Shown here: positions 27,116 through 64,000 of the stretch, in pieces | How positions within the stretch are numbered: the first letter of the stretch is position 1 | Layout: the number at the start of each line of letters is the position of its first letter | Source: Accumulibacter sp. | GTDB taxonomy: Bacteria > Pseudomonadota > Gammaproteobacteria > Burkholderiales > Rhodocyclaceae | Length of the DNA: 64,000 nt | Direction: 5' to 3' | Assembly (NCBI RefSeq): GCF_029255285.1 | Contig: NZ_JAPUVI010000030.1 | Location: 23,758 to 87,757, forward strand | Translations under genes and position numbers: made by a program | The notes under the pieces: model-generated | Database searches by the model: none | Told to the model about the DNA's origin: nothing | What the model saw: the letters and a program-made list of their open reading frames with translations, nothing else

Positions 27116-29104
27116 CTACTCGAATTCGATGATCACCTGATCGACCGACAGGCTATCGCCGGGCGCGGCAACTACCTTCTTGACCTTGCAGTCGAGTTCG
27201 GCCTTGAGGACGTTTTCCATCTTCATCGCTTCGATGACAGCCAGCTTTTCACCGGCGCTGACCTGCTGTCCAACGACCACCGACACTTCGCGCAGCAGTC
27301 CCGGCATCGGCGAAAGCAGGAACTTCGACAGGTCCGGCGGCAGCTTCTTGGGCATCAGCGCCAGCATGCGGGCCGCGTTGGCTGTCATCACCGTCACCTT
27401 GACGTGCTTGCCGAAGTGCACGACGCGATAGAGCAATCCGATGCGCTCGAGTTGCAGACAGATCGGTGCGCCGTTGCAGGTGCCGCGAAAAACGAGTTCG
27501 CCGAATTTCCAGTCGGAAACGAGATCGTAGCGGTCCACTCCGTGCGTCACCGAGTAGCCCCCGGGAATCGGTTTCACGACCACAGGGTAGTCCTTGCCTT
27601 CCATCTGCACGACCCATTCGTCACCGACCTTGCGCTGGTGACCGGCCATCTGGCCGCTGACTTGGACGGCGCGGTCGATGTAGCGGCGGCGCCCAAAAGC
27701 GGCCAGCGCGGCCAGTAGCCCCGGATCCTCGTGAACGACGTCGGAAGCCACGAAGCCGTTCGGATATTCTTCGGCAATGAAATTGGTCGTGAACACCCCC
27801 GACAGGAAGCGCGGATTCTGCATCAGCGCTGCCTGGAACGGAATGTTCGAGTCGATGCCGCGGATCACGAAAGCGTTCAGCGCATCACGCATGCGGCTGA
27901 TCGCCTGATCCCGCGTTGCCCCGTGGCAAATCAGTTTGGCGATCATCGAGTCGTAATACATCGAAATTTCGCCGCCCTCGAAGACGCCGGTGTCGACGCG
28001 GACCTGTCCTTCGGCGGTTTCCGGCGGCCGATACTTGACCAGGCGGCCGACCGACGGAAGAAAACCACGGAAGGGGTCTTCGGCGTTGATCCGGCACTCG
28101 ATCGCCCAGCCGTTGGGCTTGATGTCGTTCTGCGTGAACGGCAGTTTCTCGCCGGCCGCGACACGAATCATCAGTTCGACGAGGTCGACGCCGGTAATCA
28201 TTTCCGTCACCGGATGTTCGACCTGAAGGCGGGTGTTCATTTCGAGGAAATAGAACGACTTGTCGGAGCCGACGACGAACTCGACGGTGCCGGCGCTCTG
28301 GTAGTTGACGGCCTTGGCCAGTGCCACGGCCTGTTCGCCCATCGCCTTGCGGATGCTGTCGTCGATGAACGGCGAGGGAGCTTCCTCGAGCACCTTCTGG
28401 TGTCGCCGCTGGATCGAGCACTCGCGCTCGAGCAAGTAGACCGTGTTGCCGAAGGAGTCGGCGATCACCTGAATCTCGATGTGGTGCGGACCTTCGACGA
28501 ACTTCTCGATGAACACGCGGTCGTCGCCAAAGCTGTTGCGGGCTTCGTTGCGGCAGGCCTCGAAGCCTTCGAAGGCTTCCTTGTCGTTGAAGGCGACGCG
28601 CAAGCCCTTGCCGCCGCCACCCGCGGATGCCTTGATCATCACCGGATAGCCGATTCCCTTGGCGATCTCGACCGCCTGCGCCGAGTCGGCGATTTCCGCG
28701 TTGTAGCCCGGGATGGTGTTGACCTTGGCTTCCATGGCCAGCTTCTTGGAGGCGATCTTGTCGCCCATGGCGGCTACCGAATAGTGTTTCGGGCCGATGA
28801 AAATGACGCCGTTGTCCTCGAGACGGCGCGAGAACTCCTCGTTCTCGGAGAGGAAGCCGTAGCCCGGATGGACCGCTTCGGCGCCGGTTGCCTTGCAGGC
28901 GTCGATGATCTTGTCGATCACCAGGTAGGATTCCTTCGAAGCGGCCGGGCCGATGCAAACGCTTTCGTCGGCCATCAGCACGTGCATCGAGTCCTTGTCC
29001 GCCTCGGAATAGACCGCGACCGTCTTGATGCCCATCTTCTTGGCGGTCTTCATGACCCGGCAGGCGATCTCGCCGCGGTTGGCGATCAGAATTTTCTTAA
29101 ACAT
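27116..29104 (-). CDS. pccA: Propionyl-CoA carboxylase alpha (biotin) subunit
   Basis: A 662-residue biotin-carboxylase/biotin-carrier fusion. Using ATP and bicarbonate it carboxylates its own biotin, which PccB then uses to convert propionyl-CoA to (S)-methylmalonyl-CoA. The N-terminus is a classic biotin carboxylase (Ile-Ala-Asn-Arg-Gly-Glu-Ile-Ala) with a Gly-rich ATP-grasp loop (Ala-Gly-Gly-Gly-Gly-Lys-Gly, around residue 165). The C-terminus has the biotin attachment motif Ala-Met-Lys-Met-Glu-Asn and a BT-type linker between. Association with pccB, meaB and mcm supports propionyl-CoA rather than acetyl-CoA as the substrate. It is the last gene of a leftward operon. Confidence 0.95.
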   Translation of the reverse strand: MFKKILIANRGEIACRVMKTAKKMGIKTVAVYSEADKDSMHVLMADESVCIGPAASKESYLVIDKIIDACKATGAEAVHPGYGFLSENEEFSRRLEDNGVIFIGPKHYSVAAMGDKIASKKLAMEAKVNTIPGYNAEIADSAQAVEIAKGIGYPVMIKASAGGGGKGLRVAFNDKEAFEGFEACRNEARNSFGDDRVFIEKFVEGPHHIEIQVIADSFGNTVYLLERECSIQRRHQKVLEEAPSPFIDDSIRKAMGEQAVALAKAVNYQSAGTVEFVVGSDKSFYFLEMNTRLQVEHPVTEMITGVDLVELMIRVAAGEKLPFTQNDIKPNGWAIECRINAEDPFRGFLPSVGRLVKYRPPETAEGQVRVDTGVFEGGEISMYYDSMIAKLICHGATRDQAISRMRDALNAFVIRGIDSNIPFQAALMQNPRFLSGVFTTNFIAEEYPNGFVASDVVHEDPGLLAALAAFGRRRYIDRAVQVSGQMAGHQRKVGDEWVVQMEGKDYPVVVKPIPGGYSVTHGVDRYDLVSDWKFGELVFRGTCNGAPICLQLERIGLLYRVVHFGKHVKVTVMTANAARMLALMPKKLPPDLSKFLLSPMPGLLREVSVVVGQQVSAGEKLAVIEAMKMENVLKAELDCKVKKVVAAPGDSLSVDQVIIEFE

Positions 29105-29125: not shown

Positions 29126-30658
29126 TCAAAGCGGAATGTTGCCGTGCTTGCGCCACGGGTTTTCCAGATGCTTGTTGCGCAGCATCGCCAGCGAGCGGCA
29201 GATGCGCTTGCGTGTTTCGTTCGGCATGATGACGTCGTCGATGAAGCCACGTGCGCCGGCGACGAAAGGATTGGCGAACTTGGCCTTGTACTCGGCCTCG
29301 CGGGCCGCCAACTTGGCCGGGTCGTTCTTCTCCTCGCGGAAAATGATCTCGACCGCGCCCTTCGGCCCCATGACCGCGATTTCGGCCGACGGCCAGGCGA
29401 AATTGACGTCGCCGCGCAGGTGTTTCGATGCCATCACGTCGTACGCGCCGCCGTAAGCCTTGCGCGTGATCACGGTGATCTTCGGCACCGTGCACTCGGC
29501 ATAGGCGTAGAGCAGTTTGGCGCCGTGTTTGATGATTCCGCCGTATTCCTGGGCCGTGCCGGGCATGAAGCCGGGGACGTCCACGAAGGTCACCACGGGG
29601 ATGTTGAAAGCGTCGCAATAGCGGACGAAGCGCGCCGCCTTGATCGAGCTCTTGATGTCCAGGCAGCCAGCGAGGACCAGCGGCTGGTTGGCGACGATGC
29701 CGACCGTCGAACCGTCCATGCGCGCGAATCCGATCACGATGTTCTTGGCGTACTCGCGCTGCAGTTCGAAGAAGTCGCCGTCGTCGGCGATCTTGATGAT
29801 CAGCTCCTTGATGTTGTACGGCTTGTTCGGATTGTCGGGAACCAGCGTGTCGAGCGAGAAGTCGAGGCGGTCGGCCGGATCCTGCGACGGCAGGCGCGGC
29901 GGTTTTTCCCGGTTGTTCGACGGCAGGAAGCTGATGAAGCGGCGAATCATCATCAGCGCTTCGACATCGTTCTCGAAAGCGAGGTCGGCGACCCCCGATT
30001 TGGTGGTGTGGGTGATCGCGCCGCCGAGTTCTTCGGACGTCACGTCTTCGTGCGTCACCGTCTTGACCACCTCCGGGCCGGTGACGAACATGTAGGACGA
30101 GTCCTTGACCATGAAGATGAAGTCGGTCATCGACGGGCTATAGACCGCACCGCCAGCGCACGGCCCCATGATCAGCGAGATCTGCGGCACGACGCCCGAA
30201 GCGAGAACGTTGCGCTGGAAAACATCGGCGTAACCCGCCAATGACGCGACGCCCTCCTGGATGCGCGCCCCGCCCGAGTCATTGAGGCCGATCACCGGTG
30301 CGCCGACCTTGATCGCGTGATCCATGACCTTGCAGATCTTCTCGGCGTGCGCCTCCGAGAGCGAGCCGCCAAAAACGGTGAAGTCCTGCGAAAAGACGAA
30401 CATCAGCCGGCCGTTGATGGTCCCGCAGCCAATGACGACGCCGTCGCCAGGCACTGATTGCTCAGCCATGCCGAAGTCGTTGCAGCGGTGTTCCTTGAAC
30501 ATGTCCCACTCTTCGAAGGAGCCGCTGTCGAGCAGCAGCTCGATGCGCTCGCGGGCAGCCAGTTTGCCCTTGCTGTGCTGGTTGTCGATGCGTTTCTGGC
30601 CACCACCCAGGCAGGCCGCCGCGCGCTTTTCTGCCAGCTGGCGAATGATGTCATGCAT
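29126..30658 (-). CDS. pccB: Propionyl-CoA carboxylase beta (carboxyltransferase) subunit
   Basis: A 510-residue carboxyltransferase that transfers the carboxyl group from biotin to propionyl-CoA. It shows the two crotonase-like halves of the family. The N half has Ser-Gly-Gly-Ala-Arg-Ile-Gln-Glu-Gly and Gly-Pro-Cys-Ala-Gly-Gly-Ala. The C half has Asp-Val-Pro-Gly-Phe-Met-Pro-Gly and Ala-Tyr-Gly-Gly-Ala-Tyr-Asp-Val-Met. Its length matches PccB enzymes. It lies 21 bases upstream of pccA and downstream of meaB, so it belongs to the mcm-meaB-pccB-pccA operon. Confidence 0.96.
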
Positions 30659-54567: not shown

Positions 54568-56040
54568 ATGCTGAAAACGCTGCTCTTGCTGCCGCTGCTC
54601 GGCGCCGCGCTGCTGTCCGTGCTGCCGACGCGCAGCGTCGATCTGATGCGCTACGCGGCCAGCCTGGTCGCCGCGGCGACCATGGGCTGCGCCTTCCTGT
54701 TGGTGGCCAGTTTCGACCCCTCCGGCGCCGAGTTCCAGTTCTTCGAAACGCGGCCATGGAATCCGCGTGTCGGCTCCAGTCTGGCGCTCGGCGTGGATGG
54801 CATTTCCTTGCCGATGATCGTTCTGGCGACCGTTCTGAGTTTCGTCGCCATTTTCTCGTCGACCGGTATCCGCAGCGGCGCGCGGCTCTATTTCTCACTC
54901 TTGCTGGCGCTGGAAAGCTCGCTCCTGATCGTGTTCACCGCGCGTGACTGGTCGTTGTTCTATGTCTGCTGGGAGTTGACGCTGATTCCGCTGTTCTTCC
55001 TGATCGACCGCCTCGGCGGACCCAACCGGCATCGGGCCGCGCTCAACTTCGTGCTGTACACGCTCGGCGGCTCGGTGTTCATGCTGATTGCCTTGCTGTT
55101 GCTGTACGACGTGGCTCCCGGACACAGTTTTGCCATGGCCGACATGGCGGCCGGTGGCGCGCAGTTGCCGGCGCCAACGCAAGTGCTCATTTTTCTTGGC
55201 TTGCTGCTCGGTTTCGGCGTCAAGATGCCGATCGTCCCCTTGCACGGCTGGCTGCCGCTGGCGCACGTCGAAGCGCCGAGCCCGATCTCGATCCTGCTGT
55301 CGGGGATTCTCCTCAAGATGGGCGCCTACGGGCTGCTTCGCGCCGCCGCCACACTGCCGGCGGCGGTGCGCGCGCTGCAGGACGGGCTGGCGGTGCTGGC
55401 GCTGATCAGCCTGCTCTACGGTGCCGTACTCGCCTGGCGGCAGACCGATCTCAAAGCGATGATCGCCTACTCGTCGATCTCGCACATGGGCATCGTGCTG
55501 CTCGGCGTCGCGTCACTCAACCCGGCCGGCCTGAGCGGCGCCGTGACGCAGATGGTCGCGCACGGGCTGGCGGCGGGGCTGTTGTTCCTGCTCGTCGGCT
55601 TGCTCTACGAGCGCACGCACACGCGTGAGCTCGGGGACTACGGTTCGCTGAATCGCAGCGCGCCGCGTTTCGCCGTTTGCATCGCCTTTACGTTGCTCGC
55701 CTCGGTCGGCCTGCCGGGCAGTGCGGGTTTCGTCGCCGAACTGCAGGTACTGGTCGGCGCTTATCGCCGCTGGGGTGGCTGGCTGGCGATCGTGTCGCTC
55801 GCCGTCCTCATCTCGGCGGCCTACGCCCTGCGCGCGATCCGCTGCCTGACGAGCGACCGCGAACGGCCGGCCGCCAGCGCGCCGGCGGCTGTCGGCGGCT
55901 TCCCCGACCTCAGCCGAGGCGAGGCTGTGACGGCCGGCCTGCTGAGCCTGGGAATCGTCGCCATCGGCGTCTATCCGGCACCGCTGCTCGCCCTGATGGC
56001 GGCGTCGATGGCCCGGCTGGCGCAACAGCTTGGCGTCTGA
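54568..56040 (+). CDS. NuoM/MrpD-type proton-translocating subunit, DAB locus
   Basis: A 490-residue protein of about 14 membrane helices, related to complex I subunit NuoM. Residues needed for a proton channel are visible: the TM5 Glu in Cys-Trp-Glu-Leu-Thr-Leu-Ile-Pro, the TM7 Lys in Gly-Val-Lys-Met-Pro, the TM8 Lys in Leu-Leu-Lys-Met-Gly-Ala-Tyr, and the TM12 Glu in Phe-Val-Ala-Glu-Leu. It lies 15 bases upstream of dabA, so it most likely supplies or gates the ion flow that drives DabA. The ATG at 54568 begins a typical membrane N-terminus. The ribosome binding site is weak. No catalytic (NADH-side) complex I gene is nearby. Confidence 0.87.
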   Translation: MLKTLLLLPLLGAALLSVLPTRSVDLMRYAASLVAAATMGCAFLLVASFDPSGAEFQFFETRPWNPRVGSSLALGVDGISLPMIVLATVLSFVAIFSSTGIRSGARLYFSLLLALESSLLIVFTARDWSLFYVCWELTLIPLFFLIDRLGGPNRHRAALNFVLYTLGGSVFMLIALLLLYDVAPGHSFAMADMAAGGAQLPAPTQVLIFLGLLLGFGVKMPIVPLHGWLPLAHVEAPSPISILLSGILLKMGAYGLLRAAATLPAAVRALQDGLAVLALISLLYGAVLAWRQTDLKAMIAYSSISHMGIVLLGVASLNPAGLSGAVTQMVAHGLAAGLLFLLVGLLYERTHTRELGDYGSLNRSAPRFAVCIAFTLLASVGLPGSAGFVAELQVLVGAYRRWGGWLAIVSLAVLISAAYALRAIRCLTSDRERPAASAPAAVGGFPDLSRGEAVTAGLLSLGIVAIGVYPAPLLALMAASMARLAQQLGV

Positions 56041-56055
56041 GTCGGTGCCGGCGCC

Positions 56056-59000
56056 GTGACCGAAACCGTGTCGCCCACGACCAACGCTTCGTTCGACGCG
56101 CCGGGCGCCGCCGCGCTCGACCGATCGGCGGACTTTCGGGACTGTCTGGCGCGGCTCGCGCAGATCCTGCCGGCGCAGGCGCCGTTGCGTGATTTCGTCC
56201 ATCACAACACCTTGCACGCATTCGAGCATCTGCCGTTTGCCGAGGCGCTGGCGGCGGTTCGACGGCTGACCGGCGCCCGCCCGTGGCTGGCCGAAGACCG
56301 TTGCCGCGAGCTCTACCGCCAGGGGCGGGTCAGCGCGGCAGACCTCGCGGCGGCGCTACGGCAAGTCCCCGGCGCCGCCGTCGACGACCTGCTGTTCGCC
56401 GGTGAAACTTGGCAACTGAGCCGTGGCCAGGTGTTGCAGGCAGCATTGCTGGGCACGCTCGAGCAGCCTTCGCCAGTCCACTTGCGCTGGCTGGCCGAGG
56501 AGAGCGCCGTCTTCGAGCGCTTGCCGGCCGATCTCGATGCGGCGACGCGGCGGCGTCTGCTGACCGCCGCCGCACTCGACGGTCACGGCGAAAAATCCGC
56601 CGTGGCCGACCTCTGGGCAGCCGCGCAGGAACTGCGCGCGGCGCGGCCGCTCGGGCCGCAGGCCGCTACTGAAGCGCGCGAACCGTCGACGGAGCAGGCT
56701 GCCGCGCTGTGGCAGGACTTGCTCGCGCGGCTCGGCGAGGAGTGGACGCTGTGCGATCTGCTCGCGCACCTGGTCGGCGACGATCGCCGCGAACTGCTGC
56801 ATCCGGCACTGATACGCCAGCTTTCGGCACATCTCGACCAGGGGCTGGCCGCGTGGCGGAATCCGGCCCGCGGGCAGGGCTTCTACGCCGCGTGGCGGCA
56901 CAGCGCCGGCCGCGACCTGACGTGGGAACTCGACGAGTTCGCCTGGGCTCGGCACGACATCGAGCGCCTGCCGGCAGACCCGTGGGAGGCCATGGCGGGC
57001 GAGTTTCTGCGCCTCGGCCTCGACCCGTCGCGCTACGGCGCCTACCTGCAACGGCTGGCGCTCGAGTTGCCGGGCTGGGCCGGGATGGTCCGTCGGCGCG
57101 AGTCGCAGACCGGCGCGGCGGAAGTGCCGGTCAGCCTGGCCGACTTCCTTGCCGTGCGCGTCGTTCTCGAACGCCTCTATGCCGAACAACTCGTCCGCCG
57201 TGTCTGGGGCTTGCCGCTGCACCTGCCGGGGCTCGGCGAGTACTTCGTCGACCGGCCGGCCGAGCTCTGGGTACGACACGCCTGCGGGAGCGGGCAGTTG
57301 TCGGAAGAGATGCGCCATCGGGTGGCGCCGCGTCTGGCCTCGCCGGGCGGCGAGGAAGCGGACTGGCGGGCGCTGGCTGCCCGGCTTGTCGAAGAGCGCC
57401 ACGAAGCTGGCGCGGTCGCGCCGGACGCCTGGCCATTGTTCGACCTGGCGCGACGGCTGGGACTCTGTGGCCGGGAGTTGCGGTCCATTGGCACGGCGGG
57501 GGCGACGGCGCTGTTCGACTGCGCCGCCTCGCTCGATGCCGACCAGCGTGGCCGGGTCTGGCTGCTGGCCTACGAAGGGCATTATCGACAACAGATCCTG
57601 GCCGCCCTGGTGGCCAATCACGGCCGCGCGTCGCCGTTCGCTAGTACGCCGCAGGCGCAGTTCGTCCTCTGCATGGACGACCGCGAGGAGGGTACGCGGC
57701 GACACCTGGAGGAGGTCAATCCGGCTTTCGAAACCTTCGGCGCCGCCGGTTTCTTCGGCGTGCCGATGCTCTGGCAGGGTCTCGACGACGAGACGCCGAC
57801 AGCCTTGTGCCCGATCGTCGTGCGGCCCGAAAACGCGCTGCGCGAGGCGCCGCCAGCGGGCGTCGACGCGGCCCTGCGGCAGCATAGGCGTCGGCGGCGA
57901 ATGCTTTTCGCCTGGCGCGAACGCCTGCACCAGGGCAGCCGACGCGGCTGGCTGCCGGCCTCGCTGCTGATCGTCGCCGCCGGCCTGCCGGCCTTGCTCG
58001 GCTTGCTGGCGCGGACGCTGGCGCCGGGGCGCTGCGGCGGACTGCTGGAGGGCTGGCGCAAGGCCTTCGAGAAGCCGTTGCCAGGCGTCCTGCAACTGAC
58101 CGCCGAGCCTGCCGAGGCGAGCCGTGTCGCCAGTGCGGCGCTACCCCGCCTGGGTTTCAGCGAAGAGGAACAGGTGGCGCGGGTCGCCGGCTTCCTGCGC
58201 AGCATCGGTTTGACGCGCAATTTCGCACCACTGGTGGTCATCGTCGGCCACGGTTCCGACAGTCGCAACAACCCGCATCTCGCGGCCTACGACTGCGGCG
58301 CCTGTTCCGGAAGGCATGGCGGGCCGAATGCCAGGGTGTTTGCGGCGCTGGCCAACCGTCCGGCGGTGCGTGCCGCGTTGGTGGGGCAGGGAATCGTCGT
58401 TTCCGACGCGACCCACTTCGTCGGCGCTGAGCACAACACCTGCGACGAGACTTTCGTCTGGTACGACCTCGGTCAGATCCCGGCCAGTCATCACACGGCA
58501 TTCACCGCGCTGCGCCGTGACGTCGAGCAGGCGGCGCGGCGGCATGCCGTCGAACGCTGCCGGCGCTTCGCTTCGGCGCCACGCGCGCCGTCGCCGGAGC
58601 AGGCGCACCGTCATCTCGCCGCACGCCGCCACGACATCGCGCAGGCACGCCCCGAACTGGGCCATGCGACCGTCGCGGCGGCGTTCGTCGGCCGCCGTTC
58701 GCTGAGTCGGGGAGCCTTCTTCGACCGGCGCGTCTTTCTGATCTCCTATGATCCGCTGGCCGATGCCGACGGACGTGTGCTCGAAGCGACGCTGCTCGCC
58801 GCGGCACCGGTGGGTGCCGGAATCAACCTCGAGTACTACTTCTCGACGGTCGACAACGAGCGCTTCGGCTGCGGGTCGAAGATCATGCACAACCTCGCCG
58901 GACTGTTCGGCGTGATGCAGGGAGCCAGTTCGGACCTGCGCACCGGCTTGCCGCGGCAGATGGTCGAAGTTCATGAGCCGATGCGCCTGCTGGTGGTCGT

Positions 59001-59271
59001 CGAGCAGCGGCTCGAAATCGTCAGCGCGCTCTACCAGCGCCAAGCGCCGTTGCGCAAGCTGATCGGCAACGGCTGGATCGTTCTGGCTGCCAAGGATCCC
59101 GAGACGCCTGCGATCCATCTCTTCGATCCGACCGCCGGCTGGCAGGACTGGAAGGCCGGGCAGGCCGAGCCGCCCGCCCCGGTCGAGGTCGAACGTTCGA
59201 TCGACTGGTTTGCCGGCCGACACGAAGCGCTGCCTCCGGCCTTGTTGCGCCGTCCGGTGGTCCAGCGATGA
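56056..59271 (+). CDS. dabA: DabA-type inorganic carbon transport protein (UPF0753/DUF2309)
   Basis: A 1071-residue protein of the DabA family, large zinc proteins related to beta-carbonic anhydrases that convert CO2 to bicarbonate vectorially when coupled to a membrane partner. All four expected zinc ligands can be seen: Cys539 and Asp541 in Leu-Cys-Met-Asp-Asp-Arg-Glu, His732 in Val-Gly-His-Gly-Ser-Asp-Ser-Arg, and Cys747 in Asp-Cys-Gly-Ala-Cys-Ser-Gly. The conserved N-terminal His-His-Asn-Thr-Leu-His is at about residue 49. It starts at GTG 56056. It is flanked by antiporter-like subunits on both sides rather than a single DabB. Confidence 0.93.
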   Translation: MTETVSPTTNASFDAPGAAALDRSADFRDCLARLAQILPAQAPLRDFVHHNTLHAFEHLPFAEALAAVRRLTGARPWLAEDRCRELYRQGRVSAADLAAALRQVPGAAVDDLLFAGETWQLSRGQVLQAALLGTLEQPSPVHLRWLAEESAVFERLPADLDAATRRRLLTAAALDGHGEKSAVADLWAAAQELRAARPLGPQAATEAREPSTEQAAALWQDLLARLGEEWTLCDLLAHLVGDDRRELLHPALIRQLSAHLDQGLAAWRNPARGQGFYAAWRHSAGRDLTWELDEFAWARHDIERLPADPWEAMAGEFLRLGLDPSRYGAYLQRLALELPGWAGMVRRRESQTGAAEVPVSLADFLAVRVVLERLYAEQLVRRVWGLPLHLPGLGEYFVDRPAELWVRHACGSGQLSEEMRHRVAPRLASPGGEEADWRALAARLVEERHEAGAVAPDAWPLFDLARRLGLCGRELRSIGTAGATALFDCAASLDADQRGRVWLLAYEGHYRQQILAALVANHGRASPFASTPQAQFVLCMDDREEGTRRHLEEVNPAFETFGAAGFFGVPMLWQGLDDETPTALCPIVVRPENALREAPPAGVDAALRQHRRRRRMLFAWRERLHQGSRRGWLPASLLIVAAGLPALLGLLARTLAPGRCGGLLEGWRKAFEKPLPGVLQLTAEPAEASRVASAALPRLGFSEEEQVARVAGFLRSIGLTRNFAPLVVIVGHGSDSRNNPHLAAYDCGACSGRHGGPNARVFAALANRPAVRAALVGQGIVVSDATHFVGAEHNTCDETFVWYDLGQIPASHHTAFTALRRDVEQAARRHAVERCRRFASAPRAPSPEQAHRHLAARRHDIAQARPELGHATVAAAFVGRRSLSRGAFFDRRVFLISYDPLADADGRVLEATLLAAAPVGAGINLEYYFSTVDNERFGCGSKIMHNLAGLFGVMQGASSDLRTGLPRQMVEVHEPMRLLVVVEQRLEIVSALYQRQAPLRKLIGNGWIVLAAKDPETPAIHLFDPTAGWQDWKAGQAEPPAPVEVERSIDWFAGRHEALPPALLRRPVVQR

Positions 59272-59348
59272 GCGGCGTCCAGCGGCTGATCTGGCGCGCG
59301 GCGCGCGAGCGCTGCCTGCGGCTGGCCGATCGGCGGACGGCAGGCACC

Positions 59349-59801
59349 TCACTGCGCCGCTTCACGGCTCCGGTGAGGGCCGACGGTCTTGTCCGCCTGG
59401 CCGACGACGCGCACCTGCAGCGCGTAGTCGGCCGTCTCGTTGCGCCGCGCGGCATGGCGCATGAGGTATACGCGCAGAGTGTAGACGCCGTCGGTGGGCA
59501 ATTCGGCGGAAAACTCGTTGCCCGAGGTGGAACCGACGAACAGCGCCGAGTCGGCACCGGGCGCGATCACGTTGAAATAGGCGGACGGGTTGCTCGGCCG
59601 GAAGGCGACCACGATCGACTGTCCGGCGGCGGCGCGCAGCCGGTAATCGACGATCTGGTCGCCCTTGATCCTCCCCTTGAGCGTCGTACCGGTTTCGCCC
59701 TTCCTGAACTGCACTTGTTCCTGACGGTTGGCCGGCATGGCCGAGGCGGCGCTGCCGGCCAGCAGCAGTCCGGAAAGTACACTGGCAAGCAATCGAATCA
59801 C
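59349..59801 (-). CDS. Exported PPC-like domain protein embedded in the DAB locus
   Basis: A 150-residue exported protein on the strand opposite to its neighbours. A signal peptide (about residues 1-21, ending Ala-Ser-Ala-Met) precedes a beta-rich domain with Asp-Tyr-Arg-Leu-Arg-Ala-Ala-Ala-Gly-Gln-Ser and Asp-Gly-Val-Tyr-Thr-Leu-Arg-Val-Tyr-Leu-Met-Arg, resembling bacterial pre-peptidase C-terminal/lysozyme-inhibitor-like folds. I chose the GTG at 59801 because GGGAGGAAG lies 4 to 12 bases upstream, while the upstream ATG (59816) overlaps that site. It interrupts the rightward cluster. Whether it is functionally connected is unclear. Confidence 0.75.
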   Translation of the reverse strand: MIRLLASVLSGLLLAGSAASAMPANRQEQVQFRKGETGTTLKGRIKGDQIVDYRLRAAAGQSIVVAFRPSNPSAYFNVIAPGADSALFVGSTSGNEFSAELPTDGVYTLRVYLMRHAARRNETADYALQVRVVGQADKTVGPHRSREAAQ

Positions 59802-60046
59802 TCGTCTTCCTCCCATGGTGATGGCCGCCGGCGCGTTCCGCCGAGCGATCGGATTGTACGCTTCGCCAGCCAACGAGTGTCAGGCACTGGCCGTTCGCAC
59901 CTGGCGTTCCTTCGAGCCGACGCGTGCCTGGGGATGGCGGCGGCAGGTGTGCTAGCATCGCGCCGCCCACCCCGCGGCAGAGCACAACGGCGGCCAACCC
60001 TCACCATGCCGACGAGCGAAGCCGCCAAGGCCAGGAACTTTCTGCG

Positions 60047-61633
60047 ATGAATGTCATCGACGCACTCGCCGTCGCGCTCGCCGCGTCGGTGCGCGGTATC
60101 TGGCTGGTACCGCTCTTGCCTCTGCTCGCCGCGCTGGCGATCGGACTGCGCCTGCTGCTGGGGCGAGAGGCTGGCGAACAGCACGAGTCGCTGACCGCCG
60201 GGCTGGCGAGCGGCGCGGCGCTCGCGGCGCTGCTCTTGCTGCTGCTCATCGACATGGCCGCGCTGGCCGGACTGTCGCCGCCCGGTTTGGCGTTCGGCGC
60301 GTGGTTGCGCATCGGCGAGCTACCGGTTCGCCTGTCGTTCAGCCTCGACGTCTGGAGTTTGCCGGCGGCGACGCTGGTCGCGCTGATTGCCTGGATCGCG
60401 CTCCGCTTCTCGGCGACCTACCTGCACCGCGAGAGCGGTTTCGCGCGCTTCTTCCTTGGCATGAGCCTCTTCCTCGGCGGCCTGTTACTGGTCGTCCTGG
60501 CCGGCAATGCGCTGCTCGCCTTCGTCGGCTGGGAACTGGCCGGCTTCAGCTCCTGGCTGTTGATCGCCTACGCCTGGGAGCGACCGGTGGCGACCGGCAA
60601 CGCGCAGCTTGTCTTCCTTACCAACCGGGTCGGCGATGCCGGCTTCCTGCTCGGCATTGGCCTCGCCGTGTGGTCGGTGGGATCCGTCGAATGGGGCTCG
60701 CTGGCCGGCGACGGGACGCTGGGGACGGTTAGCGCACGCTTGCTGGCACTGGGTTTCGTCCTGGCCGCGCTGGTCAAGTCGGCGCAGTTGCCGTTTACCC
60801 CGTGGATTGCCCGGGCCCTCGAGGGGCCGACGCCGTCGTCGGCGGTCTTTTACGGATCGCTGATGGTGCACGCCGGCGTCTACCTGCTGTGCCGCTTGCA
60901 GGGCCTGCTCGTCCAGGTGCCCGACGTGCTGGCGCTGCTCCTCGTCGTCGGCCTGTCGACCGCTCTCTATGGCGGCCTGTGCGCGTTGGTGCAAAGCGAC
61001 GTCAAGTCGGCGCTGATTTTTTCGACCGTGACGCAGGTCGGGTTGATGTTCCTGCTCTGCGGCCTCGGTCTGTTCTGGCTGGCGGCCGTCTACTCCGGCC
61101 TGCACGCCGCCTGGCGTGCCTATCAGTTTCTGCTGGCACCGGCCTACATGCATCTGGTGGGCCGCCCGGCACGACCGGTGGGGCGCTGGCTGGCCGGCTG
61201 GACCTGGCTCTACACCGCGGCGTTGCAGCGTTTCTGGATCGAAGCGCTGGCCAACAGCCTGCTCACGCGGCCGACGCTGGCCCTGGGGCGCGACGTGCGG
61301 GCGCTCGACGAACACTTTATCGACCCGCTCATCGGGGCGCCGCGCGACGAGACGCAGCGCGAGCTCCGCTCGGCGCCCGACGGCCGGCCGCCGAGTCCGA
61401 TCGGCGACCCGGGCGACGCTCTGATTCGCGGCCACGGCCTGGCCGGGCGCGCGCTTCTCGGTTTCGCCGGATGGCTGCAGAACGTCGAGAACCACCTGTT
61501 GCTGAGCGGCGACGGGGCGTTGGCCGCCCTCCTGCAGCGCGCGGGACGACACGCGGACGCCGTCGAGTCGCTGCTCGAACAGCCGCGCTATCTGATGCTG
61601 ATGGTGATGGCCACTTTCGTGGTGATCCTGTGA
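60047..61633 (+). CDS. dabB: NuoL/DabB-type proton-translocating subunit, DAB locus
   Basis: A 528-residue protein of about 14 helices, related to NuoL/MrpA and matching DabB in length. Key residues are the TM5 Glu in Val-Gly-Trp-Glu-Leu-Ala-Gly, the TM7 Lys in Leu-Val-Lys-Ser-Ala-Gln-Leu-Pro-Phe, and the NuoL-like His in Met-Val-His-Ala-Gly-Val-Tyr. It is the most likely direct partner of DabA, although the 59349-59801 gene separates them. AGGAA lies 10 bases before the ATG, and the short in-frame-stopping peptide preceding it (60006-60050) ends in ATGA. Its stop overlaps the next gene (GTGA). Confidence 0.85.
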   Translation: MNVIDALAVALAASVRGIWLVPLLPLLAALAIGLRLLLGREAGEQHESLTAGLASGAALAALLLLLLIDMAALAGLSPPGLAFGAWLRIGELPVRLSFSLDVWSLPAATLVALIAWIALRFSATYLHRESGFARFFLGMSLFLGGLLLVVLAGNALLAFVGWELAGFSSWLLIAYAWERPVATGNAQLVFLTNRVGDAGFLLGIGLAVWSVGSVEWGSLAGDGTLGTVSARLLALGFVLAALVKSAQLPFTPWIARALEGPTPSSAVFYGSLMVHAGVYLLCRLQGLLVQVPDVLALLLVVGLSTALYGGLCALVQSDVKSALIFSTVTQVGLMFLLCGLGLFWLAAVYSGLHAAWRAYQFLLAPAYMHLVGRPARPVGRWLAGWTWLYTAALQRFWIEALANSLLTRPTLALGRDVRALDEHFIDPLIGAPRDETQRELRSAPDGRPPSPIGDPGDALIRGHGLAGRALLGFAGWLQNVENHLLLSGDGALAALLQRAGRHADAVESLLEQPRYLMLMVMATFVVIL

Positions 61634-63129
61634 ACGAAGTGCTGTGGGCGGCGCAGGCCGGCTACCCGCCACTGGCCACCCTGCAGTGCTTGCCGCTGGG
61701 CGGAGCGCTGCTCCTGCTGATCATGCGCGAGCAGGATCTCGCGCTGATCCTCGGCCGCGTTTTCGCGGTCGGCGAACTCGTCGTGGCGATCGACCTGTAC
61801 GCGCGCATCGACGTCTCGACCAGCGCCCTGCAGTTCGCCGAGCACCTCGACCTGTTCGCCTACCATGCGGCCGCCGACGGCGTCAGCGTGCTGTTCGTCC
61901 TGCTCACCGCCCTGCTCGGCGCCCTGTTGTCCTTCTATGGCATGGCGCGGCAACAGATCTCGCCGGTCCAGTTGCTGAGCGTCCTGTTGTTGACCGAGGC
62001 CTCGCTGATGACCTTGCTGACGACGATGAACCTCTTGTGGTTCGCCGCCGCCTCGGCCGGGCAGTTGGCGCTTGTCGGCTACCTGTTGTGGCGCTGGGCG
62101 TCGTCGCCGGAAGAAAGCCTCGCCCTGTCGCGCTTCCTGCAGTACCAGTTGTTCGGCTGGTGCCTGTTCGTCGCCGGCGCCGTCGTCCTCGTCTGGAGCC
62201 ATGCCGACGCCAGCGGCGGGCGCTGGAGCTTCGATCTTTTTGACCTGCTGCGCACGCCACAAATCGGCAAGTACCAGTCGGCGGCCTTTTACCTCCTGTT
62301 CTATGGCCTGGCGGTGCGCACGCCGCTGTTTCCGCTGCACGGCTGGCTGCCCAACTCGGCCGGCTACGGGCTGATCGCCGTCGGGCCGGTATTGTTGCTC
62401 GGTGTCAAGGTGGGGATTTACGGCATGGCGCGCTTCCTGTTGCCGCTGACCGCCGAGGCGGTGATGATCTGGCAGCCCTACGTCGTCGCCTTCGCCATGG
62501 TCGGCGTCTTCTTCGCCGCGGTGATGGCCTTCCGGCAGGTGAACCTGCGGCGTCTGATGGCCTTCGCCGTCGTCAGCCATACCAGCCTGATCGTCATCGG
62601 CCTGTTCACGCTGCATCCCGCCGGTTTGCAAGGTGCTTTGCTGCTGGCGATCAATTTCGGTCTGGCGATCACCGTCATGCTGCTCATGGTGGGCTACGTC
62701 TACCGCCGCACCGGGACGACCGCTCTCGGCCGGCTCGGCGGGCTGTTCGATCGTGTCCCCTTCATTGCCGTCGCTTTCCTGATCGGCGGCCTGGCCATCC
62801 TCGGCATGCCCGGTACGCCGGGTTTCGATGCCGCGCACCTGGTCCTCGAAGCGTCGATCGAGACGTTTGGCGCGCTGCCGACGATCGCTACCGCGTTGGG
62901 TAACGTTGCCGCCGCCGGTTTTCTGCTCTGGGCTTTCCAGCGCGCCTTCCTGGCGCCGCGACCGCGAGACGTGCCGGTAGCCCGCATCGCGCGCACCCGT
63001 CCGATGGAATATTTCGTCGGCGGCACGACCTTGCTCGTCCTGCTGGCCGCCGGCTTCTGGCCCGAACCCTGGCTGCAGCTTACCGATACCGCGACGCAGG
63101 CGCTGGCGGCGTATTTTCAGCATGACTGA
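61630..63129 (+). CDS. Divergent antiporter-like membrane subunit, DAB locus
   Basis: A 499-residue polytopic protein of the complex I/Mrp antiporter superfamily, starting at GTG with a four-base overlap. It keeps Pro-Leu-His-Gly-Trp-Leu-Pro and the TM8-type Lys (Gly-Val-Lys-Val-Gly-Ile-Tyr-Gly). However, the TM5 Glu region reads Phe-Ala-Ala-Ala-Ser-Ala-Gly without Glu, the TM7 Lys position is Arg (Ala-Val-Arg-Thr-Pro-Leu-Phe-Pro), and the TM12 site is Gly-Phe-Asp. It is probably a structural or gating subunit rather than a full proton channel. It overlaps the following gene by 8 bases. Confidence 0.8.
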   Translation: MNEVLWAAQAGYPPLATLQCLPLGGALLLLIMREQDLALILGRVFAVGELVVAIDLYARIDVSTSALQFAEHLDLFAYHAAADGVSVLFVLLTALLGALLSFYGMARQQISPVQLLSVLLLTEASLMTLLTTMNLLWFAAASAGQLALVGYLLWRWASSPEESLALSRFLQYQLFGWCLFVAGAVVLVWSHADASGGRWSFDLFDLLRTPQIGKYQSAAFYLLFYGLAVRTPLFPLHGWLPNSAGYGLIAVGPVLLLGVKVGIYGMARFLLPLTAEAVMIWQPYVVAFAMVGVFFAAVMAFRQVNLRRLMAFAVVSHTSLIVIGLFTLHPAGLQGALLLAINFGLAITVMLLMVGYVYRRTGTTALGRLGGLFDRVPFIAVAFLIGGLAILGMPGTPGFDAAHLVLEASIETFGALPTIATALGNVAAAGFLLWAFQRAFLAPRPRDVPVARIARTRPMEYFVGGTTLLVLLAAGFWPEPWLQLTDTATQALAAYFQHD

Positions 63130-64000
63130 ACTGAGCGCCTGGCCCTTGCTGAGCTTTCTGCTGGCGCTACCGGTGCTCGGTGCGCTGGTCACCGCGCTCC
63201 TGCGGCGTGCCCCCTGGGCGACCTGGCTGGCGTTCGGCGCCAGCCTATTGACGCTGCTCGTGGCACTGCTGGTGGTCGCCGCCTTCGACAGGACAGTGGC
63301 CGATTTTCAATTGCTCGACTCGGCGGACTGGATCGCCGGGCTCAACGTTCGCTATCTCGTCGGCGTCGATGGCATTTCGCTGCTCTTTCTGCCAGCCACG
63401 GCGCTCCTCTTCTGTGGCGCCGTCGTCGCCAGTTGGCGTGTCGGCGCCAACGCGTCGACGCTGGCTCCCGGACTGTACTTTTCCCTGCTGCTGCTGCTCG
63501 AAGCGGCGACGCTCGGCGTCTTCTGCGCGCTGGATACCGTCCTGTTCTTTTTCTGCTGGGAGTTTACGCTGCCGCCGCTCTACTTTCTGGTCAGTCTGTG
63601 GGGCGTCGGCGTCGGCCGGCAGGCGGCGGCGGTGCGCTATTTCCTGGTCATGCTGGCCGGCGGCGTACCGCTTCTCTTCGGCCTGCTGGCGGCAGCCTTC
63701 GGGCAGGCGGGGGGTGGCGGGCCGGTGTTCGACTTGCCGACGCTGCTCGCGACGCCGCTGCCCGAGGGCGCGCAGACCCTGGTTTTCCTGCTGCTGTTCG
63801 TCGGTTTCGCCGTCAAGGTGCCGCTCGTGCCGGTGCATACCTGGTTGCCGCCGATCGCCATCGCGGCGCCGGCAGCAGTCACGGCGCTCATCGTTGGCCT
63901 CAAACTGGGTGCCTACGGACTGATCCGCCTGGCCATTCCGCTCGCCCCCCTGGCCGCGCGCGACCTGCACTGGCTGCTTGCCGGTTGTGGCACCGTGGCG
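63122..64000 (+). CDS. NuoM-type proton-translocating subunit, DAB locus (partial)
   Basis: The first 293 residues of another NuoM-type protein; the gene continues beyond the window. It keeps the TM5 Glu in Phe-Cys-Trp-Glu-Phe-Thr-Leu-Pro-Pro, the TM7 Lys in Phe-Ala-Val-Lys-Val-Pro-Leu-Val-Pro-Val-His-Thr-Trp-Leu-Pro, and the TM8 Lys in Gly-Leu-Lys-Leu-Gly-Ala-Tyr-Gly. Its ATG lies 8 bases inside the previous gene. It is the fourth antiporter-like subunit in this locus and the second with full NuoM-type residues. Confidence 0.87.
   Translation, partial: MTELSAWPLLSFLLALPVLGALVTALLRRAPWATWLAFGASLLTLLVALLVVAAFDRTVADFQLLDSADWIAGLNVRYLVGVDGISLLFLPATALLFCGAVVASWRVGANASTLAPGLYFSLLLLLEAATLGVFCALDTVLFFFCWEFTLPPLYFLVSLWGVGVGRQAAAVRYFLVMLAGGVPLLFGLLAAAFGQAGGGGPVFDLPTLLATPLPEGAQTLVFLLLFVGFAVKVPLVPVHTWLPPIAIAAPAAVTALIVGLKLGAYGLIRLAIPLAPLAARDLHWLLAGCGTVA

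Follow-up and report, generated by a model that had tools for sequence, protein, structure and literature searches.

It is proposed that the five genes M1, dabA, dabB, M2 and M3 from a relative of Candidatus Accumulibacter encode one complex in which CO2 is hydrated by ion-motive force, with coupling altered from that of the two-gene pump DAB2; we put the probability of this reading at roughly 0.6. Judged from sequence, the set probably turns CO2 into bicarbonate with ion-gradient energy by a route other than that of DAB2. The genes lie in this order on the forward strand of the window, by which we mean the whole stretch of 64,000 nucleotides that was analysed. The features referred to below are as follows.

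27116-29104, reverse strand: PccA, in the same window
29126-30658, reverse strand: PccB, in the same window
54568..56040, forward strand: M1, NuoM-like (antiporter-like), 490 aa, frame open from 54406; PF00361 235 bits, TIGR01972 468 bits
56056..59271, forward strand: dabA, His-type, 1071 aa, GTG start; PF10070 791 bits over residues 33-1008
57670..57684, forward strand: codons of zinc ligands C539 and D541 and of R543, aligned to C351/D353/R355 of H. neapolitanus DabA2
57952..58008, forward strand: hydrophobic "finger", residues 633-651 (by hydropathy), without the Glu needed in DAB2
58249..58296, forward strand: codons from zinc ligand H732 through zinc ligand C747, aligned to H524/C539 of DabA2
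58663..58665, forward strand: codon of H870, at the Leu658 position of DabA2 (motif RPELGH versus RPEWGL)
59349..59873, reverse strand: antisense ORF between dabA and dabB, 174 aa, possibly an exported protein, outside the conserved set
60047..61633, forward strand: dabB, NuoL-related, 528 aa; PF00361 (116 bits) and PF00662
60533..60535, forward strand: codon of E163, the TM5 Glu (NuoL E144 position by alignment)
61630..63129, forward strand: M2, divergent NuoM-like, 499 aa, GTG start overlapping the dabB stop; PF00361 116 bits, TIGR01972 269 bits
63122..64000, forward strand: M3, NuoM-like, first 293 codons, cut at the contig end; PF00361 92 bits

All five genes seen in the first-pass annotation proved to be open on the forward strand with the same or nearly the same coordinates, and the PF00361 scores of the four membrane proteins are far over the cut-off. 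The divergent antiporter-like gene that had been noticed is present as M2; the last gene, labelled a second NuoM-type gene, is actually the third, with M1, M2 and M3 all matching NDH_I_M best. The description of the gene ends as mostly overlapping or near-touching holds in general and fails at the dabA/dabB junction, where 775 nt between the end of dabA (59271) and the start of dabB (60047) hold the antisense ORF. This ORF gave no Pfam or NCBIfam match at E 0.001, and among the other loci compared only L060 carries a similar sequence. The gap is unusual, but that it is unique to this genome was considered and rejected, as four of the 101 measured dabA-dabB pairs are more than 150 nt apart (775 in the window, 734 in L063, 396 in L140 and 226 in L164). 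The run stops at base 64000 because contig C30 ends there (contig position 87757), and the locus is therefore not extendable here; the conserved set of relatives closes with M3, of which full-length orthologues exist, for example at 12680-14179 of L004.

The five genes are a fixed gene set. A comparison of gene order across DabA-bearing genomes, which the first-pass annotation had recommended, revealed a conserved arrangement, with the complete order M1-dabA-dabB-M2-M3 in 62 of 80 loci of relatives and median spacings between neighbouring genes of -8 to +1 nt. Of the 18 incomplete loci, thirteen are truncated at a contig end or close to one; the others have a duplicated dabA-dabB (L063), a partly masked dabB (L018), a frameshift at the dabB-M2 junction (L052) or dabA alone (L074/L075). 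A DabB-M2 fusion, suggested by a 1002-aa frame in L052, was considered but not accepted: at the junction, the natural C-terminus of DabB and its stop are found in a different frame, so this is a frameshift. The neighbourhood scan left out L001, L003 and L084-L123, and L128, L136 (dabA alone) and L141 fall outside both gene-order patterns.

The genes also share their distribution. Among 398 genomes drawn from the phylum, 36 carry a long His-type DabA, M2 is found in the same 36 and in no other, and all five genes are present in 36/36 carriers, counts that ignore shared ancestry. The M2 matches comprise 35 single ones above 613 bits and one split, the next best scoring 329 bits. Classes were assigned from the span of the match, which gave 32 short and 34 long, G316 being counted among the latter; three further long genomes, whose matches are split, were added by hand, and a 23.6-bit fragment in G207 was omitted. 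Of the 32 short loci in this sample 29 were fetched, and one, L156, showed no DabB. Among 150 genomes of the family, M2 occurs in 15 of 17 with long DabA and in 0/133 without it, again ignoring shared ancestry; in the two exceptions the contigs end inside the locus. In G157 and G161, M1-M3-DabB-M2 lie together on a contig separate from dabA. The idea that the five genes behave as one unit is supported by their matching distribution (36/398), their kept order and a membrane quartet that stayed intact after dabA moved. An explanation as passenger genes is contradicted by the M2/DabA co-occurrence and by the quartet kept apart from dabA in G157 and G161.

DAB2, the DabA2-DabB2 pair of H. neapolitanus, is described as a working two-subunit pump with known mechanism and mutants, in which Glu444 of the DabA2 finger is essential (PMC13144422). 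The window's DabA covers positions 3-747 of the 747 in the PF10070 profile (cut-off 25 bits), as a full-length family member does, and is 40 to 75% identical to 46 aligned relatives. Its four zinc ligands C539, D541, H732 and C747, already recognised in the first reading, were verified at the codons together with R543, and the ligands and the Arg are kept in 105/105 distinct His-type rows (109 rows, four being copies of the same contig). The residue switches are seen directly in the alignments. A Glu is aligned to Glu444 in 0/109 His-type rows versus 29/29 short and 5/5 plasmid-borne two-gene DabAs, a column sensitive to how the rows are aligned, with Glu in 2/82 rows and Asp in 1/82 in an earlier alignment; some acidic residue falls within the finger core in 6/109 His-type rows. 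The absence of Glu444 makes coupling by the published DAB2 route unlikely in His-type proteins, and what replaces this residue is a guess. The Leu658 position is occupied by His in all 105 distinct His-type rows, whereas all 29 short and all five plasmid-borne two-gene DabAs have Leu; beta-carbonic anhydrases have Gln or His here, and His is the residue type of the canonical ones (PMC13144422). DabA length was rejected as a class marker, since the Nitrobacter DabA is 1037 aa long yet has Glu444 and Leu658.

The kinship of the membrane subunits is observed directly in a quick tree with long branches, in which DabB joins NuoL (support 99) apart from two-gene DabB, M1-M3 join NuoM (support 99) and each gene position forms one clade (support 97-100). 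Distances among members of the set correlate with r 0.89-0.96, with no control gene for comparison. The TM5 Glu of DabB is present in 96/96 distinct rows of this type versus 0/28 short and 0/5 other DabBs. Simple hydropathy, the sole basis of the TM counts for DabB and DabA, predicts TM1-11 in DabB, then ~150 aa without a predicted TM and one C-terminal TM; TM12-15 appear to be missing. An HL helix common to the DabB C-terminus and NuoL was rejected, as the NuoL HL region gives only a weak profile match (P 0.036 over 44 columns, probability 1.4%). In M1, the TM7 Lys, TM8 Lys and TM12 Glu are kept in 103/103 rows and the TM5 Glu in 102/103 (one gap). The channel residues are likewise kept in M3; in M2 two are lost and a third altered, with the TM5 Glu missing from 94 rows (one further row gapped), the TM12 Glu missing from 95 and Arg replacing the TM7 Lys in 95/95. 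By these residues M2 is probably not a pump subunit of the canonical kind.

The channel residues kept in M1 and M3 would also suit another division of labour, in which DabA and DabB form a working pump and M1-M3 an independent cation/proton antiporter in an accessory role, correcting pH or ion balance while the pump is running. Two subunits are enough in DAB2 (PMC13144422), and G316 has only a His-type DabA and a 440-aa DabB of this type, without M2; in that genome at least, these two may therefore be enough. Against this, no M2 was seen in genomes without His-type DabA (0/362 phylum and 0/133 family genomes), DabB in G157 and G161 stays with M1-M3 and not with dabA, and the five genes include no small Mrp-type subunit. 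DabB moreover has the TM5 Glu ion-pair set, which lies near subunit interfaces in complex I (PMC13144422). We consider this division of labour unlikely.

For the single complex that we favour, the physical assembly, the ion and its direction, the stoichiometry and the CO2-to-bicarbonate reaction are those we infer as follows. A beta-carbonic-anhydrase-like DabA head would sit on a membrane arm built from four subunits of complex I descent, namely a NuoL-like DabB and three NuoM-like proteins. Through this arm ions, most likely protons, would flow inward down their gradient, and the flow would power the hydration of CO2 to bicarbonate in DabA, in one direction only. Since key residues differ from those of the two-gene pump, the coupling route is probably different: unlike in DAB2, the channel Glu would not be supplied by the DabA finger, and DabB, with TM12-15 apparently lost, carries the complex I TM5 Glu plus the Arg/Asp/Lys set. 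M1 and M3 would serve as seemingly intact ion channels and M2 as a modified subunit, probably structural or gating. A point against this reading is that, by our own arithmetic, a single proton at 150 mV is already enough to displace the CO2/bicarbonate equilibrium ~340-fold, so that several channels are unneeded at high gradients.

The complex might instead run in reverse or with another ion, bicarbonate/CO2 conversion or Na+/bicarbonate movement being coupled to ion export. Na+ has reportedly been proposed for relatives in the work on MpsAB. In the proposal of a COGNAT study (PMC5700660), catalysis is exergonic and the ions moved relate to how many membrane subunits there are, and the invariant His at the Leu658 position is of the canonical beta-carbonic anhydrase type (PMC13144422); 34 of the 36 phylum-sample carriers are without a RuBisCO match. 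On general thermodynamic grounds, however, CO2 hydration is near equilibrium at about neutral pH and cannot alone export several ions, and the frequent SulP permease neighbour (50/107 His-type loci versus 0/29 two-gene loci) fits uptake of inorganic carbon. This reading seems quite improbable to us. An ordinary two-gene DAB beside chance antiporter genes, with the extra genes and residue differences meaningless, is hardly credible: PF00361 genes are indeed common (matches in 13/14 control genomes), but order and co-occurrence are conserved and the His at position 658 is found in 105/105 rows versus 0/29.

A RuBisCO match is found in 2/36 carriers versus 115/362 non-carriers of the phylum sample and in 13/17 versus 59/133 of the family sample; with these opposite signs a general RuBisCO link was rejected. 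The rarity of RuBisCO in the phylum-sample carriers and the antisense gene that splits dabA from dabB here are observations that speak against a single complex. Supply of bicarbonate to PccAB, put forward in the first-pass annotation, is not upheld, as these genes are ~24 kb off on the opposite strand and not among the annotated recurrent flank genes. Its view of a complex-I-like arm with no NADH module stands: tblastn with eight Nuo proteins of this genome found no NuoB-I match in 102 of 108 fetched loci, and the other six have one or two weak NuoB, NuoD or NuoI matches. In three of these six, L009, L010 and L016, genes resembling NuoB and NuoD adjoin additional antiporter-like genes, and the group looks like a separate hydrogenase-4-type cluster. 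The set is not an operon of either the Nuo or the Mrp kind; this genome has a nuo operon elsewhere, on contig C29, as well as an Mrp set (contig C104), and among the matches listed (25 per protein) the membrane proteins score below the cut-off of every Mrp or Na+/H+ antiporter model.

Gradient-driven CO2 hydration has been modelled in print from a single two-subunit structure, with the finger glutamate central (PMC13144422). The present loci (36/398 phylum-sample genomes) would add a sister class that lacks the finger Glu, has the canonical carbonic anhydrase residue type for Leu and includes a complex I-like arm. We suggest, tentatively and with more doubt than belief, that this is a distinct class with a non-redox four-subunit arm, its own coupling route, a DabB from a separate NuoL ancestor and M2 as a dedicated non-pumping coupling subunit. 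If so, spending two or three ions on each CO2 would permit function at gradients too weak for the two-gene pump. The set would also be a natural experiment on a long-standing complex I question, namely how an antiporter-like arm is coupled to chemistry, here without electrons.

Compared with the DAB2/DAC pump (PDB 9rd0), the window shares the PF10070 head with the C351/D353/R355/H524/C539 site and a NuoL-like partner with S256, K310 and the R182/D185/K235 set. It differs in its reversed order (dabA before dabB), in three extra NuoM-like subunits, in a DabA without Glu444, with His for Leu658 and mostly Leu for Trp656, and in a DabB with the TM5 Glu (Ile151 in DAB2), Tyr for H260, Arg for K347 and apparently no TM12-15. 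By these residues, whose switches the first reading had missed, the DabA/DabB pair is of a type other than DAB2. In the open-licence literature searched, we found no biochemical data on the His-type, and operons of this type are mentioned only in the text available from PMC5700660, not in that from PMC3772326, PMC9040806 or PMC13144422. The "clade C" YbcC operons noted there (COGNAT, Biol Direct, 2017) without a given function are very probably the same loci, having ybcC upstream of nuoL with NuoM (COG1008) and SulP (COG0659) genes nearby; as far as described in that source, they differ in having no fixed five, no class residue comparison and no carbonic anhydrase function, an exergonic reaction being proposed instead. 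The complex I arm, including the 2M or "green" complex I, likewise has NuoL- and NuoM-related subunits, a fourth or fifth antiporter-like subunit being described (PMC9040806), whereas the five-gene loci mostly lack NuoB-I and the nuo operon lies elsewhere in the genome. The window's DabB scores 122 bits against the NdhF3 model, with a cut-off of 589. The cyanobacterial NDH-1MS is alike in outline, with a CO2-hydrating protein on NdhF/NdhD-type subunits. It differs from the arm proposed here in being redox-driven (background also in the introduction of PMC13144422).

The window forms the terminal stretch of contig C30 in the genome of a Candidatus Accumulibacter relative, and its carbonic-anhydrase-like DabA (PF10070) is 63-74% identical to the DabAs of loci named Accumulibacter. 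Alongside dabA stand three NuoM-like genes (M1, M2 and M3) and the NuoL-related dabB, arranged as follows:

54568-56040, plus strand, M1
56056-59271, plus strand, dabA
59349-59873, minus strand, antisense ORF of 174 aa, a possible exported protein
60047-61633, plus strand, dabB
61630-63129, plus strand, M2
63122 to contig end, plus strand, M3

The antisense ORF sits within a 775-nt spacing between dabA and dabB; gaps above 150 nt occur in four of the 101 pairs measured (the window, L063, L140 and L164). Elsewhere in the locus collection, only L060 has a sequence similar to the ORF (47-52% identity).

The array of dabA with four complex-I-like genes, as proposed by the first-pass annotation, is borne out by gene order across relatives: M1-dabA-dabB-M2-M3 is complete and in order in 62 loci among the best 80 of 140 found by DabA similarity, some of the M3 genes being themselves cut. 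Thirteen of the remaining 18 break off at a contig end or close to one, L050 and L081 having a broken frame as well; the others have a partly masked dabB (L018), a frameshift (L052), a dabA-dabB duplication inside the set (L063) or a dabA without other set genes nearby (L074 and L075). L063 (13981-20399) is from a Thiothrix MAG, and the second DabA of its inserted pair is 38% identical to that of the window.

DabA matches were found in 69 of the 398 genomes of a phylum sample, and their spans form two non-overlapping classes, 32 matches at 2217-2394 bases and 34 at 2691-3054 bases, with three genomes with split matches extra and the G207 fragment left out. The short class is a two-gene dabB-dabA unit in 28 of 29 fetched neighbourhoods, no dabB being seen in the other (L156). 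The long class is the five-gene set in all 36 genomes, with a cut M3 in three of them, a cut M1 in one and a fragmented DabA match in three. An M2 profile matches strongly in exactly the same 36 of the 398 genomes (35 above 613 bits, one split; next best match 329 bits), and in a family sample of 150 genomes M2 is found in 15 of 17 with long DabA and in none of the 133 others, these co-occurrence counts being raw and uncorrected for ancestry; in the two family genomes with long DabA but without M2, contigs end in the locus. In G157 and G161, M1-M3-DabB-M2 stay together on one contig while dabA occupies another, where it adjoins a CheV-like gene (L128/L184 and L136/L185). G316, which also carries a two-gene DAB, has a further His-type DabA (995 aa; L141, 110-4416) beside a 440-aa DabB only, with no NuoM-like genes adjoining; this pair is possibly a minimal or ancestral form. 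On Nitrobacter hamburgensis plasmid 1 (L227), two neighbouring DUF2309-PII units lie beside RuBisCO and carboxysome genes, and the DabA examined there, although 1037 aa long, is of the Glu444/Leu658 type.

The locus is not a Nuo or Mrp operon, since the genome has its own nuo operon on contig C29 (A, B, C, D, E, F, H and I by Pfam match, L, M and N found too, and G, J and K assigned by position) and its own Mrp set on C104. The suggested absence of an NADH module also held: eight Nuo proteins of this genome had no match in 102 of 108 five-gene loci, and L014, L135 and L182 had one weak match each. The Accumulibacter-related L009, L010 and L016 carry NuoB-/NuoD-like genes and further antiporter-like genes flanking the set, in an arrangement that by sequence resembles a hydrogenase-4-type cluster.

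A SulP permease gene (a reference in PMC13144422, used here, as is PMC5700660, from excerpts, places the bicarbonate carrier BicA in this family) occurs at 50 of 107 loci of the long class, or 49 of 103 once copies are removed, versus none of 29 short loci. In five-gene loci it mostly lies either upstream and on the same strand or downstream and on the opposite one. None of the 50 is named Accumulibacter, and the five SulP genes of the window's genome are all on other contigs. Association of RuBisCO with the long class goes both ways. Bicarbonate supply to PccAB, whose genes share the window, had been envisaged, but nothing ties them to this locus. The excerpts of the 2017 COGNAT report describe frequent NuoM and SulP genes near ybcC where it stands upstream of nuoL, and its authors suggested more ions for more subunits (PMC5700660); those loci very probably correspond to this set, so the class had already been seen. 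No characterisation of it was found in the literature consulted on such operons, itself partly in excerpt. The constant five-gene make-up, the switched residues and the changes in M2 are results of the present analysis.

TM5 Glu, TM7 Lys, TM8 Lys and TM12 Glu are conserved in M1 (102-103 of 103 rows) and in M3 (87-90 of 90 rows, with three gaps). In M2 the TM5 position has no Glu in 94 rows (one more has a gap) and the TM12 position none in 95, TM7 Lys is replaced by Arg in 95/95 rows, TM8 Lys is retained, and Asp, His and Glu residues near TM12 are conserved. Each position forms one clade in a rapid, long-branched tree, indicating distinct subunits rather than recent copies, and the distances among the five genes, compared within the set only, correlate at 0.89-0.96, which shows common inheritance.

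For residue comparison we used DAB2, the two-subunit pump of H. neapolitanus (structure 9rd0, PMC13144422). TM5 Glu is present in 96/96 distinct long-class DabB rows versus 0/28 short ones; DAB2 has Ile151 there, linked to a stabilised open state (PMC13144422). Long-class DabB retains R182/D185/K235, with H260 changed to Tyr and K347 to Arg, and groups with NuoL (99), two-gene DabB falling outside, in the same rapid, long-branched tree. By hydropathy it has helices as far as TM11, then about 150 residues with none (weakly like the NuoL HL region) and finally a C-terminal TM, so that NuoL TM12-15 appear to be missing.

In DabA, 105/105 distinct long-class rows retain the zinc ligands and Arg355. 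Leu658, invariant across 150 DabA2 homologues at a site that holds Gln or His in beta-CAs (PMC13144422), is His in 105/105 distinct long-class rows and Leu in 29/29 short ones. Glu444, whose replacement in E444A and E444Q abolishes DAB2 activity (PMC13144422), has no aligned Glu in 109 long-class rows, a column that depends on the alignment (an earlier one had Glu in 2/82 and Asp in 1/82 rows); some acid occurs in the finger core in 6/109 long-class versus 29/29 short rows. Long-class rows have Leu for Trp656 in 103/105, Ile for His684 in 104/105 and Ala, Gly or Thr for Phe375 in 105. Five plasmid two-gene DabAs, from Actinomycetota, a haloarchaeon and Proteobacteria, have Glu444 and Leu658. 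Since DAB2 with L658Q, G, A or N still works in vivo and L658Q is inactive in vitro (PMC13144422), His at 658 need not give a free enzyme.

From these sequences, the complex would most likely be a beta-carbonic anhydrase that sits on a complex I-like arm and is powered by an ion gradient. DabB retains ion pairs that are short of one partner in DAB2, and half-channel helices seem to be missing from it; for both reasons, neighbouring M subunits may complete or control its ion path; the constant changes in M2 suggest a structural or gating part. By our arithmetic a single proton at 150 mV is enough for CO2 hydration, so our guess is that additional ions would bring a benefit only where gradients are weak or, equally a guess, that not all channels are coupled. 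The class is worth an experiment. Compared with DAB2, its DabA has the same zinc ligands and Arg355 and differs in having no Glu aligned to 444 and carrying His at 658; the two DabBs have R182/D185/K235 in common, and among the DabB rows compared TM5 Glu occurs in the long class only.
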